A stretch of 64,000 nucleotides of DNA from Xenophilus aerolatus. Its GTDB lineage: Bacteria; Pseudomonadota; Gammaproteobacteria; Burkholderiales; Burkholderiaceae_C. The notes under the pieces are model-generated. The model was not told the origin of the DNA and did no database searches. It saw only the letters and a list, made by a program, of their open reading frames with translations. Location of the stretch: NCBI GenBank assembly GCA_030418545.1, contig QAIB01000001.1:310001-374000 (forward strand), read 5' to 3'. Shown piece by piece: positions 19,539 to 27,807 of this stretch; the first letter of the stretch is position 1, and each line of letters opens with the position of its first letter. The translations under genes and the position numbers were made by a program.

Positions 19539-21191
19539 TCAACGCTCCTGCAGGCGCGCGTCCTTCGGGTAGCCGATGGTGTAGTCGGCCGTGAAGCGGG
19601 CGCGCTGGCCGGCGCCCAGCTCGGTGCGCCACATCGCCACACCCGGCTGCCGGTTCCACGCCAGCTCGGCCGGTTGCGGCGAGAACTGCGACGCCACGCG
19701 CACCTGCTCGTTGACCGACACGGGCGCTGCTTCCAGCACCTGCACGGCGATCGGCGTGCGGTGCCGGTTCTCCACCACATAGGCGCGCTGCACCTGGCGC
19801 TCGGCACGGCTGCCGGCGAAGCCGCCGCTGCCCTGGTTGTCGCGCTCGGGCTCGGCGCTCACGCGCACCAGTTCGTCGCGGCCGAAGGAGAGCGTCACGC
19901 GTGCCGGCCCGTCGACGTTGCCCGGCGCGTTCCACTGGCCGCTGCCGACGAAGGCGCCGTCCCGGTACAGCTGCAGCGCGCCGGCCGGCCACACACCTTC
20001 GGGCTGCGCGATGTCGGCCACGAGGTAGGCCGCCTGCTCCAGCCTCGGGCTGATGCGCACCGCCACCTGCGCCGTGTCTTCATGCTGGCCCAGCGGCATG
20101 GCTACGCGCTGGCCGTTCGACGGCACGTCGATGGCTTGGGTCACGTCGAACTCGGTGGCGAAGCTGCCTTGGAACACGTTGACGTCGAAGAGCGGCCGCT
20201 CCGGCAGCATCGCCTTGGCCGCGGCCATGGGCGCCGCGGGTGCCGGCGCCATGGCGAAGCGCGCCACGCTGTCCTCGCGCGCGACCTGCTGCTGCGGTGG
20301 CGGCTCGACGCCGATGCGCCACGGCGCGGGCGTGCGGCCGGCCGTGTTGCGCCTCGGCTGGCCGGTGGACAGCACGAGCTTCACGCCGCGCCAGTCCTCG
20401 CCCGTGGCCTGCGCGACCAGCGCCTGGCGCTCGATGCGCAGCTTGCGGGTGGTGGTGTCCAGCAGTGCGCGGTAGCTGGGCGTCCAGCCCGGCCCGGCCA
20501 CCTGGTAGGAGAGGCGCAGCTCGGCTTCGCGCGGCGCGTCGAGCGTGATCGTCACCGCCGTGACCTGGCCGTTCTCGCCGCCCTGGCTGCGCTGGCGCTC
20601 GGCCAGCAGTGGCTGCAATTGGCGGTCGAGGTCCTCCTGCCGCCGGTCGATCTGGTGCTGGCGCAGCAGCGACTCCTGGCCGGTGCGGCGCATCGCGTCG
20701 GCGGTCGCGGCCAGGTTGCGCGCATCGACCGCGGGCCGCTTCGCATCCCCGTCGCCACCGCCGCCCAGCCCCTTGAGATATCCGGTGACCAGGCCCAGCG
20801 CGTCGCGCTCGGCCTGCAGCGTGGCCTTCTGGTCTTCCAGCGCGCGGATGCGGCCGTCGAGTGCACTGGTGGCGCAGGCGGCCGAGAGCGCGCGTGGCTC
20901 GGTGATGACCGAGGTCTCGCCCACGCGCACCGAAGCGTCGGCGCTCACCTGCAGGCTCTGCACGTCCAGGCCGGCCGGCAGGCAGGCGAGCGTGACGCTG
21001 CGGCTGCCGGCCGGGATGCGGGCCACGCGTTCGACGGTCGCGCTGCCCGGGTAGACCTTGACCTGCGCGATGCGCGAGTTGACTGCGGCGGGCGGCGGCA
21101 TGTCGAGTGCGGCGGCCGGCAGGGTGAAGACCGCGGCGAGTGCGGCCAGCAGCGGCTCGGGGCGCAGGAGGGGCGAGGACAGGAAAGACAT
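19539..21191 (-). CDS. DUF4139 domain protein (mucoidy inhibitor-like)
   Basis: A 550-residue exported protein with a signal peptide (hydrophobic core LLAALAAVFTLPAAALD). The N-terminal DUF4140-like part (SRIAQVKVYPGSATVERVARIPAG, LPAGLDVQSLQV) is followed by a coiled coil at about 115-205 (rich in Q, R, E), and then DUF4139 from about 225 (LRLSYQVAGPGWTPSYRALLDT, WRGVKLVLSTGQP). This matches proteins called mucoidy inhibitor A-like; their role is not established. ATG 21191 is the only start compatible with the signal peptide. It is convergent with the small secreted protein gene. Confidence 0.88.
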   Translation of the reverse strand: MSFLSSPLLRPEPLLAALAAVFTLPAAALDMPPPAAVNSRIAQVKVYPGSATVERVARIPAGSRSVTLACLPAGLDVQSLQVSADASVRVGETSVITEPRALSAACATSALDGRIRALEDQKATLQAERDALGLVTGYLKGLGGGGDGDAKRPAVDARNLAATADAMRRTGQESLLRQHQIDRRQEDLDRQLQPLLAERQRSQGGENGQVTAVTITLDAPREAELRLSYQVAGPGWTPSYRALLDTTTRKLRIERQALVAQATGEDWRGVKLVLSTGQPRRNTAGRTPAPWRIGVEPPPQQQVAREDSVARFAMAPAPAAPMAAAKAMLPERPLFDVNVFQGSFATEFDVTQAIDVPSNGQRVAMPLGQHEDTAQVAVRISPRLEQAAYLVADIAQPEGVWPAGALQLYRDGAFVGSGQWNAPGNVDGPARVTLSFGRDELVRVSAEPERDNQGSGGFAGSRAERQVQRAYVVENRHRTPIAVQVLEAAPVSVNEQVRVASQFSPQPAELAWNRQPGVAMWRTELGAGQRARFTADYTIGYPKDARLQER

Positions 21192-21287
21192 GGTGGACTT
21201 CTCCGGAGTTGATGAAGACGCCGTCCGCAGGTGGCGATGAAGGCTCATACGGCGCACGCGGCGTTTCGGGGTTGGCGGATTCGCGGC

Positions 21288-21352
21288 TTCAAGCAAAAAA
21301 AGCCTGCAGCGCCCGTCGGGCGGACGCACGCAGCTATCGAATCCATAGCAAT
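21288..21352 (+). repeat. Dispersed intergenic repeat, copy 4
   Basis: A forward copy: TTCAAGCAAAAAAAGCCTGC, AGCGCCCGTCGGGCGGACGC, then CAGCTATCGAATCCATAGC. It lies in the 287-base gap between divergent genes (DUF4139 and thioesterase). Confidence 0.82.
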
Positions 21353-21478
21353 GCGCCGTGATGTCGCCCGCGCGTCTGTCGCCCACGCAACCGCGGCGGG
21401 CGGTAGCGTCGCGCGCGGGACGACGCGCAGGCCCGGTGATTCCTAGAGTGCCTGCACCGTTCCACCAGGAGTCGTCCG

Positions 21479-23933: not shown

Positions 23934-24926
23934 ATGACGATCCAGTGGTTCCCCGGTCACATGAATGCCACCCGCAAGGCGATCGCGGAGCGGCTGAAGA
24001 CCACCGACGTCGTGATCGAGCTGCTCGACGCGCGCCTGCCCGGCTCGAGCGCCAACCCGGCCATCGAGGGCATGACCTCGGTCAAGCCGCGGCTGAAGAT
24101 CCTCAACAAGCAGGACCTGGCCGACCCCGCCCGCACGGTCGAGTGGCTGGCCCACTACCAGGCGCAGAGCGCCACCGGCGCCATCGCCCTGGACGCCAGC
24201 CAGACCGCGCCGGCCCAGCGCCAGGCCATCATCGACGCCTGCCACCGCCTGTCGCCCAACCGTGGCGGGCTGGCCAAGCCCATGCGCGTGCTCATCTGCG
24301 GCGTGCCCAACGTCGGCAAGTCCACCCTCATCAACACGCTGAGCCTCAAGCGCCAGGCCAAGGCGGCCGACGAGGCGGGCGTGACCAAGCAGGAGCAGCG
24401 CATCCTGCTGGCCGACGACTTCTACCTCTACGACACGCCGGGCATGCTGTGGCCCAAGATCATCGTGCCCGAGAGCGGCTACCGGCTGGCCATCAGCGGC
24501 GCGGTGGGCCGCAACGCCTACGACGACGAGGAGGTGGCGCTGGAGCTCATCGCCTACCTCAAGGCCCAGTACACCGAGGCGCTGCGCAGCCGCTACAAGC
24601 TGGCGGCCGACACGGCCCAGGCGGCGCTGTGCACGCAGCCCGACGAGGACATCCTCGACGCCATCGGCCGCAAGCGCGGTGCCCTGGTCAGCGGGGGGCG
24701 GGTCGACCGGCAGAAGGCGGCCGAGGCACTGATCACCGACTTCCGCAGCGGCGTGCTCGGGCGCATCACGCTCGAGACGGTCAACCAGTTCACCAAGTGG
24801 CTGAGCGACGGCCGCAAGGCCGAGGCCGAGTTGCGCAAGCGGCGCGAGGCCGCGCTCAAGGCCAAGAAGGGCACCGGCCGCCGCGCCGACGACGACGCGG
24901 CAGGCGACGAAGAAGCGGCAGACTGA
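23934..24926 (+). CDS. ylqF: Ribosome biogenesis GTPase, YlqF/RbgA family
   Basis: A 330-residue circularly permuted GTPase: the G4 motif NKQD (near residue 61) precedes G1 GVPNVGKST (near 123) and G3 DTPG (near 168), the order that defines the YlqF/RbgA group. The N-terminal MTIQWFPGHMNATRKAI is diagnostic. In other bacteria it helps assemble the large ribosomal subunit. The C-terminus carries a basic then acidic tail (RRKREAALKAKKG-type, then DDDAAGDEEAAD). ATG 23934 is the family start. Confidence 0.93.
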   Translation: MTIQWFPGHMNATRKAIAERLKTTDVVIELLDARLPGSSANPAIEGMTSVKPRLKILNKQDLADPARTVEWLAHYQAQSATGAIALDASQTAPAQRQAIIDACHRLSPNRGGLAKPMRVLICGVPNVGKSTLINTLSLKRQAKAADEAGVTKQEQRILLADDFYLYDTPGMLWPKIIVPESGYRLAISGAVGRNAYDDEEVALELIAYLKAQYTEALRSRYKLAADTAQAALCTQPDEDILDAIGRKRGALVSGGRVDRQKAAEALITDFRSGVLGRITLETVNQFTKWLSDGRKAEAELRKRREAALKAKKGTGRRADDDAAGDEEAAD

Positions 24927-25096
24927 ACCCCTGCAGGCCGCCGCGGGGGCGCGCGGACTGGCCATCCGGCAGATGGGCAGCGCGCAGGGCCTTGCCCACA
25001 ATGGTCCGTTCGTTCCGGACCTGTCCCGCGCCCCATGGCTGCCCGCTTCGCCTCCTTCCACGCGCTCCGCCGCCCCAGACCCGGGAGGCGCTGAGC

Positions 25097-26842
25097 TTGC
25101 CGGCCCGCACCTCGCCCGGCGTCTACGTGCAAGAGTCGCTTCCACCGGGCCGCGCGATCACCCTGGTGCCCACGCACGTCGCGGCCTTCGTCGGGCCGAC
25201 GCGCCGTGGACCGCTGGCGGGCGCGCCGCCGATGCTCACGAGCGTTGCGGACTTCGAGCGCATCTACGGCGGCGTGCAGGCGCTGTGGTTCGACGACGGC
25301 GCGGGCGGGGTCGCGCCCCAGACCAACCACGTCGCCCTGGCCGTGCGCGCCTTCTTCGACAACGGCGGCGCGCGGCTGTACGTGCAGCGCACCGTCGGGG
25401 CGGCGATGGCGGCAGCTGCACGGCTGCACCCCGAGGGAATCTCCGAGGACCAGGCCATCGTCATCCACGCCGCGGCGCCGGGCCGCCTGGGCAACGGCAC
25501 GGTGCGTCTGCGGGAGCGGGCCAGCCCGGTCACCCTGCGCGCCATGACCCATGCCGAGCCGGGCACCCTGCTGCGCACCACCAACGCGGAGGGCACCTTC
25601 GAATGCATCGCCGATGCCGAGGGCCGCTGGCACGACCGCCAGGGCCGCCGGGTCGTGCACGGGCGTGTCGGCGCCAGCCGGGTGCTCACGCTGGAGGCAG
25701 CCAGCTTCGACGCCGAGGGCCTGCCCCTGGACGCCTGGACGGGGCTGGCTTTGTCCGCCCTGCATGCCCGGTGGGTGGGCACGGTGCTCTCGCGCGAGGC
25801 GGCGGCCGTGGGGCGCGCGTCGGCATGGTGGGCACTGGGGCCGCAGGCCGATGCCTGGGCGCTGCTGGATGCGGTCCGCGCGCTGGCGCCCGACGCCGAC
25901 GGCGCGGCGACGGTCGCATTGGCTGGTGGCACCGATGGCGGCCTGCCACCGGTGGGCACGGCGGACCAGCCCGGCAGCTACGCCGCCGCGCTCGCCACGC
26001 TGGCCCGCCAAGGCGATGTGCGCATCGTCGCCGCACCGGGCAGCAGCCTGCGTGAAGACGGCGCCGCACTGCGGGCGACGCTGGTGGCGCATGCCGGCGC
26101 GCCTCGGGCCTGGCGCATGGCCTTGCTCGACCCGGCACCGGGGCTGGCGGTGGCGGGCGTGAAGGCCCAGCGCGCCGAAATCGATTCGCCGCACGCCGCC
26201 CTGCACTGGCCCTGCCTGGTGGTGCCCGACCCCTTGCCGCCGCCGGGCGTCGTCGGCGCGACGGTCACCGTGCCGCCCAGCGGCGCCGTTGCGGGGCTGT
26301 ATGCGCGCGCCGACCTGAATCGCGGCGTGCACCACGCACCGGCCAACCTCGATGTGAAAGGCGTGGTCCGCGCCGAACAGCCGGTGAGCATGCACGAGCA
26401 GGAGCAGCTCAATCCGCTGGGGGTGAATTGCTTTCGCGAATTCATCGGCCGCGGCCTGGTGCTGTGGGGCGCGCGCACGCTGTCGTCCGACCCGCAGTGG
26501 CGCTACGTCAGCGTGCGGCGGTACGTCGACGCCATCGAAGCCTCGCTCGACGCCGGCCTGCGCTGGGTCGTGTTCGAGCCGCAGGGCGAGGCCTTGTGGG
26601 CCCAGGTGCGCTCGGCGGTCGACCACTTCCTGCTGGGCCAATGGCGCGAGGGCGCATTGCAGGGCAGTGGCGCGCGCGAGGCCTGGTACGTGCGCTGCGG
26701 CGCGGGCAGCACCATGACGGCCGACGATGTGGCCCAGGGCCGCGTCGTGTGCGAGATCGGGGTCGCGCTGCTGCGGCCTGCGGAGTTCGTGGTGTTGCGC
26801 TGGACCGGCGCCACCGCCGGCGCCCTGCAGCCGGATGGATGA
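25097..26842 (+). CDS. Orphan contractile-tail sheath protein
   Basis: A 581-residue phage-type tail sheath protein. The N-terminal PARTSPGVYVQESLPPGRAI and HVAAFVGPTRRGPL are the conserved sheath start; the C-terminal part (LNPLGVNCFREFIGRGLVLWGARTL, RYVSVRRYVDAIEASL, WVVFEPQGEALW, then EFVVLRW) is the conserved assembly domain. Sheath proteins contract to drive phage tails, R-pyocins and extracellular injection systems. No tube, baseplate, tape-measure or lysis gene is near, and the neighbours are housekeeping genes. TTG 25097 is chosen because GGGAGG precedes it by 8 bases; no ATG fits the N-terminus. Confidence 0.88.
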   Translation: MPARTSPGVYVQESLPPGRAITLVPTHVAAFVGPTRRGPLAGAPPMLTSVADFERIYGGVQALWFDDGAGGVAPQTNHVALAVRAFFDNGGARLYVQRTVGAAMAAAARLHPEGISEDQAIVIHAAAPGRLGNGTVRLRERASPVTLRAMTHAEPGTLLRTTNAEGTFECIADAEGRWHDRQGRRVVHGRVGASRVLTLEAASFDAEGLPLDAWTGLALSALHARWVGTVLSREAAAVGRASAWWALGPQADAWALLDAVRALAPDADGAATVALAGGTDGGLPPVGTADQPGSYAAALATLARQGDVRIVAAPGSSLREDGAALRATLVAHAGAPRAWRMALLDPAPGLAVAGVKAQRAEIDSPHAALHWPCLVVPDPLPPPGVVGATVTVPPSGAVAGLYARADLNRGVHHAPANLDVKGVVRAEQPVSMHEQEQLNPLGVNCFREFIGRGLVLWGARTLSSDPQWRYVSVRRYVDAIEASLDAGLRWVVFEPQGEALWAQVRSAVDHFLLGQWREGALQGSGAREAWYVRCGAGSTMTADDVAQGRVVCEIGVALLRPAEFVVLRWTGATAGALQPDG

Positions 26843-26859: not shown

Positions 26860-27807
26860 ATGACCCACACACCGCCCCCGCTCCCCACGCTCGAAGTCAC
26901 GCCCCGCGACCTGTCGGCCTACAAGGCCGGCAATACCGGCGTCGAGTATGTCCACCGCTTCGAATCCGGCCGCCCCGGCCCGCACGTGCTCATCAACGCA
27001 CTGACGCACGGCAACGAGATCTGCGGCATGGTGGCCGCCACCCATCTGCTCGACACCGGCGTGCGGCCCAAGGTCGGCACGCTCACCGTCAGCTTTGCCA
27101 ACGTGGCCGCGTACGAGAGCTTCGACATCGAGAAGCCCTTCGAGAGCCGGCAGCTGGTGCACAACATGAACCGCATCTGGTCCAGCGAATGGCTCGACGG
27201 CGCCGAAGACAGCCCCGAGCTGCAGCGCGCCCGCGCCATGCGCGGCGTGGTCGACGCGGCCGACCACATCCTCGACATCCATTCGACCAGCCAGGACGTC
27301 GTGCCCTTCTGGGTGTACCCCGCCTTCGAGCGCAACGGCGCCGTCGCCATGGCCATCGGGCGCCCGGCGGTGCACCTGGTCATGCCGCAGGGCCTGGGCT
27401 CCGGCATCCCGCTCATCCAGTACGGCCACCACGGCAACGACGGCCCCGGCCCCGGCACCGCCATGGTGGTCGAGTGCGGCCAGCACTTCAAGGCATCCGC
27501 CTCGCAGCTGGCCACCGCCGTGACGCTGGACTTCCTGGCCCACTTCGGCCTCATCGACGCGCCCGAGCCCGCGGCACCCAAGGAGCCGCAGCGCCGCTAC
27601 GAGCTGCTGCAGACGCACATGGTCCACACGACCGAGTTCCGCTTCGAGCGGCCGCTGGTCGGCTTCGAGACCTTTGCGAAGGACGAGCTCATCGCCACGG
27701 ATGGCGATCGACGGATCGTGTCGCCTTGCGATGGGTGCACGATCTTCATGCCGACGCGGGAGCCGATCGTGGGGCGGGAGGCGGTGTATCTGACGCGGGG
27801 GATTTGA
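26860..27807 (+). CDS. Succinylglutamate desuccinylase/aspartoacylase family protein
   Basis: A 315-residue zinc hydrolase of the AstE/ASPA group. The metal ligands are H50 and E53 (NALTHGNE) and H141 (ILDIHSTS); HNMNRIW near 101-107 is the substrate-binding NRIW-type motif; the catalytic glutamate is in MVVECGQHF. It cleaves an N-acyl amino acid or related amide in the cytoplasm. The start lies 17 bases after the sheath gene stop, but functional linkage is doubtful. Confidence 0.9.
   Translation: MTHTPPPLPTLEVTPRDLSAYKAGNTGVEYVHRFESGRPGPHVLINALTHGNEICGMVAATHLLDTGVRPKVGTLTVSFANVAAYESFDIEKPFESRQLVHNMNRIWSSEWLDGAEDSPELQRARAMRGVVDAADHILDIHSTSQDVVPFWVYPAFERNGAVAMAIGRPAVHLVMPQGLGSGIPLIQYGHHGNDGPGPGTAMVVECGQHFKASASQLATAVTLDFLAHFGLIDAPEPAAPKEPQRRYELLQTHMVHTTEFRFERPLVGFETFAKDELIATDGDRRIVSPCDGCTIFMPTREPIVGREAVYLTRGI

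Follow-up and report, generated by a model that had tools for sequence, protein, structure and literature searches.

The window analysed here, a 64,000-nt stretch of the 5.84-Mb genome of Xenophilus aerolatus (Xenophilus, Comamonadaceae; G000), carries a solitary contractile-sheath gene. We read its product, with a probability of about 0.5, as a domesticated eCIS sheath-fold protein that is no longer a contractile sheath and that would act through its folded body, as a monomer or a small non-contractile assembly. In this proposal, an ancestor of these Xenophilus species would have acquired or kept the first sheath ("sheath 1") of a two-sheath eCIS without the remaining machine. The gene would then have settled between ylqF and astE and been inherited vertically, with the sheath fold kept under overall purifying selection. 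We infer that contraction was lost, that the protein is cytoplasmic, and that the folded body carries the present role. The loss of contraction is proposed since the parts that join and move the subunits, the N-terminal arm with its linker and the core, evolve as fast as the remainder of the protein or faster.

The sheath gene and its neighbours

The coordinates of the gene, its parts and its neighbours are given in Table 1. Both domains of the Phage_sheath_1 family exceeded the curated Pfam cut-offs, the subtilisin-like domain at 66.5 bits (E 3.3e-18; cut-off 31.4) and the C-terminal domain at 42.2 bits (E 8.9e-11; cut-off 26.9). The protein also matched the PHROG tail sheath (E 2e-49). A phmmer search of the PDB returned a haloarchaeal CIS sheath (9ezm, E 2e-73) and a Streptomyces CIS sheath (8bky, E 2.5e-72), and Foldseek with the predicted model gave 9ezm as the top PDB match (E 6e-31). 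These matches confirm what a sequence-only reading had claimed, a full-length sheath that starts at TTG behind GGGAGG. There was no match to the TssB/TssC-type T6SS sheath family; the protein matches PF04984 and PF17482 only. With the sheath protein as query, no second match was found in the genome, indicating a single copy. When an orphan and a cluster sheath were predicted with AlphaFold at equal alignment depth, the core failed in each, in different parts.

Table 1. Features of the solitary sheath locus (positions in the 64,000-nt window).
Feature	Position	Strand	Evidence
YlqF/RbgA ribosome biogenesis GTPase, upstream neighbour	23934..24926	+	TIGR03596, E 5e-90, over cut-off
GGGAGG ribosome-binding site	25083..25088	+	sequence
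Solitary contractile-sheath gene, 581 aa, TTG start, TGA stop	25097..26842	+	Pfam PF04984 and PF17482, PHROG, PDB
N-terminal arm, residues 2-27	25100..25177	+	dN arm/mid rate test; variable-column count
Phage_sheath_1 (subtilisin-like) domain, residues 295-462	25979..26482	+	Pfam
Sheath core as taken for the rate test, residues 386-572	26252..26812	+	dN core/mid
Sheath C-terminal domain, residues 463-568	26483..26800	+	Pfam
Succinylglutamate desuccinylase/aspartoacylase-like (astE/aspA-like) gene, downstream neighbour	26860..27807	+	AstE_AspA_cat PF24827, E 3e-10

The TTG start is kept in the closest orthologues, and the more distant orthologue in G005 starts with ATG. A purine-rich site lies upstream of the start in all orthologues (GGAGG in the closest ones, GGAGGG in G005). 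The neighbours had been described as housekeeping genes, ylqF and a desuccinylase, and the YlqF and AstE_AspA_cat models support both names. The sheath stop codon (TGA) occupies 26840-26842 and the desuccinylase-like gene begins 17 nt later; judging by this spacing, the two are probably co-transcribed. A promoter and terminator scan gave nothing above chance, and ARAGORN found no tRNA in the 64-kb window.

The site in the genus

We compared the site among 15 genomes of the genus. The order ylqF-sheath-desuccinylase, whose conservation in relatives had been put forward as a check, is held in seven of them: G000 and G060 (same species), G002, G008, G012, G013 and G005. The orthologues in G002, G008, G012 and G013 are 79-84% identical to the window sheath and that of G005 is 56% identical. 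A contig of Xenophilus sp. E41 gave a 100% match, and X. aerolatus DSM 19424 has the gene as well. At this site the sheath is missing in the other eight. In six of these (G001, G006, G007, G009, G010 and G011) the gap is filled by another gene, which proved to be a sulfate permease wherever it was read, and ylqF and astE are separated in G003 and G004. The permease is of the SulP type (loci L105-L110; Pfam-checked in L107).

A marker search of the whole 64-kb window revealed no tube, baseplate, spike, gp25 or cap gene. The gene is thus an orphan, as claimed from the letters, and the sister species share this state at the same site. No other phage genes or tail cluster were found in the window or at this site in relatives, which speaks against a prophage or prophage remnant. 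A complete tail cluster at this site in relatives would have marked the gene as a deletion remnant. That objection fails, because none of the 15 genus genomes has a tail cluster, or a remnant of one, between ylqF and astE.

Another gene of the window (19539-21386), which we take to be DUF4139-like, has a homologue that adjoins a complete single-sheath eCIS in G026 (G026:C2, ~577-603 kb; L067/L073). In G005, a homologue lies directly beside ylqF. Both adjacencies are possibly due to chance.

An eCIS lineage

The better phage sheath matches to the window sheath reached only 37% identity over 30% of the protein. A scan of viral contigs, by a method that detects close relatives only, found no sheath relatives. 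The closest relatives in a set of 400 genomes of the family are 44-48% identical over the full length, and most are the first sheath of two-sheath eCIS. These clusters have the order cap-hypothetical-sheath1-tube1-sheath2-tube2-CIS_tube-gp27-gp5-gp25-baseplate. Given the weak phage matches and the eCIS "sheath 1" as nearest relative, the sheath is of eCIS origin and not recently derived from a phage. The earlier description of a phage-type sheath was therefore right about the sheath and imprecise about its type.

Two-sheath, two-tube eCIS are common in Comamonadaceae (L143-L162). The N-terminal arm of their sheath 1 is nearly invariant (MPEYLAPGVYVEETSFRAKSIEGV), and the PGVYVEE motif is missing in most of their second sheaths.

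Selection on the sheath and its parts

Selection was assessed by pairwise NG86 omega in the five tube-carrying species. Omega was 0.22-0.40 for the sheath (overall ~0.3), 0.11-0.18 for the unlinked tube described below, 0.29-0.40 for the CIS_tube-like gene and 0.04-0.21 for neighbouring genes. No stop or frameshift occurs in the sheath in any of the seven genomes, against ~40 stops expected under neutrality for the five species (star tree, dS 0.38). The omega values and the stop-free frames indicate that the gene is maintained, in agreement with the proposal of selection rather than prophage decay.

The constraint within the protein is distributed differently from that of cluster sheaths. In a dN ratio test with bootstrap over codon columns, in which pairs were pooled and are non-independent, the core/mid ratio was 1.03 [0.77-1.40] in the window sheath vs 0.22-0.37 (upper limits <=0.68) in five sets of cluster sheaths whose dS is roughly comparable. 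The arm/mid ratio was 1.72 [1.00-2.74] in the window sheath vs 0-0.25 in the same cluster sets. In addition, 14 of the 26 arm columns are variable in the window sheath, vs 0, 1, 5 and 4 of 26 in four cluster quintets (Fisher p 1e-5 to 0.02). The extra constraint on core and N-terminal arm is strong in every cluster lineage examined and lost in the lineage of the window sheath, which thus lacks the mark of a working sheath, a strongly conserved core and inter-subunit arm. Relaxed selection, named earlier as evidence against retention, is present in arm and core, but the gene overall is not relaxed. At the level of sequence, this pattern suggests a new role that would not need contraction.

The N-terminal arm takes part in the handshake between sheath subunits. 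Through this conserved "handshake" the sheath subunits of eCIS are interwoven (PMC8894135), and the Streptomyces CIS no longer contracts when the linker I21-G25 is lengthened (PMC10066040). The arm residues P7, G8, V9, V11, E13 and I21 are invariant over orphans and clusters, and V24 nearly so. The orphan sheath may still self-associate or polymerise, with which the kept hydrophobic pattern of I21 and V24 is compatible. However, the suggestion that it polymerises alone is disfavoured by the loss, in N-terminal arm and core, of the special constraint of working sheaths. We also considered the change of the linker from IEGVG to ITLVP as proof of non-contraction and rejected it: the motif alone proves nothing, since sheaths of single-sheath clusters lack IEGVG too.

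Solitary sheaths elsewhere in the family

We scored a sheath as solitary if no other marker lay within ~9 kb. Among the loci examined in the family, further solitary sheaths were found in G279, G401, G102, G099, G342, G085, G219, G221, G131, G201 and G020; a few of these calls may be wrong, because L186 lies near a contig end and the marker set draws on three types of cluster. In a quickly built tree of 90 rows, with some long branches, solitary sheaths fall within groups of cluster sheaths. Mapping the solitary state onto it takes 11 changes, gains and losses counted together, and well-supported branches require 10 or more of these. We thus count about ten origins of solitary sheaths in the family. 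The PF06841 tube was absent from all 15 solitary-sheath genomes tested outside the tube-carrying clade (the 11 further genomes plus G005, G006, G007 and G009), and two cluster genomes used as controls were positive. No recurrent partner gene lies beside solitary sheaths of different lineages; the flanks differ, and G401 and G342 share a site.

A different solitary sheath, unrelated to that of the window and belonging to another eCIS class, is shared by G006, G007 and G009 (L069, L068 and L040), where it lies away from ylqF-astE beside an amidase-like gene. In these sheaths the last 190 columns are 0.74 identical vs 0.65 for the middle; the clusters give 0.90 vs 0.55. This class leans toward the same loss of constraint as the window sheath.

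Solitary eCIS sheaths might then form a recurrent domesticated class, captured about ten times in one family for a shared non-contractile role that needs only the fold, without tube, spike or baseplate. We put this generalisation forward tentatively and would sooner bet against it than for it.

The same recurrence bears on the strongest rival, in which the window sheath is a slowly eroding remnant, all that survives of a lost eCIS, held by weak selection (for example, against misfolding) and without a new role. Sheaths have become orphans about ten times, at sites unrelated to each other, and shortened forms occur among the solitary ones (377 aa in G020, 409 aa in G102). The window sheath is also missing at its site in eight of the 15 congeners. 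Furthermore, the core omega is 0.29 in the window sheath set vs 0.10-0.17 in cluster sheaths. All of this would fit erosion. However, the intact frames in seven genomes contrast with the ~40 stops expected in the five-species set alone, and the start, the ribosome-binding site and the synteny are conserved out to the 56% sister G005. The arm is the fastest part while the body is constrained, a pattern that uniform erosion would not yield. We give the eroding remnant roughly half the weight of the domesticated protein.

The rest of the machine in the genome

The sequence-only reading had also raised the option that the sheath serves a distant injection system, with tube, baseplate and spike elsewhere in the genome. 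A gp19-type tube gene (PF06841, E 1e-41) does occur at G000:C46:105320-105745, alone on its contig; NCBIfam CIS tube models match it below cut-off. A 187-aa tube-initiator-like gene follows 15 bases after it, with a CIS_tube-like domain (PF19266) below cut-off; the G008 orthologue of this gene matched PF19266 at E 3.5e-4, also below cut-off. A PF19266 search of the G000 genome gave no match, and this search is blind to the 187-aa gene. In six Xenophilus genomes the pair is cleanly set between NUDIX/NrtR-like and GNAT-like genes (G000:C46:105275-106375; L033 19275-19799, L033/L034 junction).

For the remaining parts we searched with one query joined from segments of cap, ATPase, spike, gp25 and baseplate genes, which recovered the clusters in G026, G058 and G040 as positive controls. 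With this query no eCIS cap, spike, gp25 or baseplate was found in G000 and its sisters, and the only ATPases were generic AAA ATPases. Nor did the genus yield a complete eCIS. The single Baseplate_J match and one of the two gp25 matches in G000 belong to a P2-like prophage, and Baseplate_J was accordingly rejected as a dispersed eCIS part. This prophage (L059, G000:C1:149001-169000) encodes a sheath of its own together with an FII tube, a hub and baseplate J. The second gp25 match lies 20 kb from TssC (C2:149800-150708) and is most likely the T6SS TssE. Given these assignments and the result of the composite query, no fitting baseplate was found for the window sheath. Thus, of the parts sought elsewhere, the gp19 tube was found, and an eCIS baseplate or spike was not.

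Together with the tube pair, the window sheath could build a dispersed minimal machine, in which the unlinked tube and tube-initiator-like (CIS_tube/Afp7-like) genes supply a sheathed or simple tube, perhaps spikeless or with borrowed parts. The tube pair is confined within the genus to the six genomes with a 79-100% identical sheath, and its tube has an omega like that of tubes in complete eCIS clusters; retention in six genomes fits a residual machine. This co-occurrence is limited to one clade and therefore possibly reflects one event. Against such a machine, the tube shares 75-80% identity with its counterparts in single-sheath clusters (for example, in G026, whose sheath is only 31% identical to the window sheath), but the sheath is nearest to two-sheath clusters at 44-48%, so that tube and sheath descend from different eCIS classes. 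Moreover, G005 has the sheath without the tube and its NUDIX-GNAT gap is empty, eCIS baseplate, spike and gp25 were not found in the genome, and constraint is relaxed in the arm and core of the sheath. As the main reading, a single machine of sheath and unlinked tube was rejected because of lineage, the G005 pattern and the constraint data. The distant-system option is weakened to an unlikely one, and repurposing is the best supported of the three options offered at the outset.

A dominant-negative decoy, a lone subunit that inserts into the sheath of an invading or acquired eCIS or tail and so spoils its assembly or contraction, would explain why lone subunits from several eCIS classes are retained recurrently, and an altered arm on a retained fold is what a poisoning subunit could show; we consider it very improbable, and the genus showed no complete eCIS. 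An accessory sheath for the T6SS or the P2-like prophage tail of the same genome is the least probable, for although both systems are present (TssC; prophage with baseplate J, hub, tube and sheath), each owns a sheath, that of the prophage being too divergent for detection with the window sheath as query.

Comparison with known systems

No linked tube, spike, gp25 or baseplate lies beside the window sheath, and the locus thus does not qualify as an eCIS. One eCIS survey requires at least four linked members (PMC8213781) and another requires baseplate, tube and sheath initiator (PMC12210884). Single sheath genes drop from such surveys by design, because several linked genes are required. We found no description of orphan or solitary sheaths in open-access papers, a result that does not prove there is none. 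The family of the protein is known; the combination of a conserved, solitary, non-contractile-looking sheath with repeated origin was described nowhere in the open-access papers searched. To our knowledge, no sheath has been described other than as a spring, in phage tails, eCIS, tailocins and T6SS. Should lone sheaths be retained because they serve a purpose, this well-studied fold would gain a new use, and working and captured sheaths could be told apart in any genome by their constraint profile.

Lone structural genes are known from T6SS orphan hcp/vgrG islands, in which single structural genes lie apart from the main cluster and serve the main cluster of the same genome. The window sheath resembles them in standing alone and differs in that no matching main cluster was found for it. 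The Halogeometricum borinquense CIS sheath (9ezm) is the top PDB match by sequence and fold, but it is a member of a complete, contractile system (PMC11566945). The Streptomyces coelicolor Cis2 sheath (8bky, 8bl4, 9gtp) is the second-best PDB match (E 2.5e-72). Its contraction linker I21-G25 corresponds by position to residues 21-25 of the window sheath (PMC10066040 numbering); however, the linker reads IEGVG there and ITLVP here, and Cis2 belongs to a complete cytoplasmic machine. Closest is sheath 1 of the Comamonadaceae two-sheath eCIS (L143-L162), with full-length homology (44-48% at best), the same domain order and the arm pattern P7-G8-V9, I21 and V24 in common. That sheath sits in a complete cluster with cap, two tubes, second sheath, spike, gp25 and baseplate, whereas the window gene stands alone, and its near-invariant N-terminal arm and slow core are both relaxed in the window sheath.
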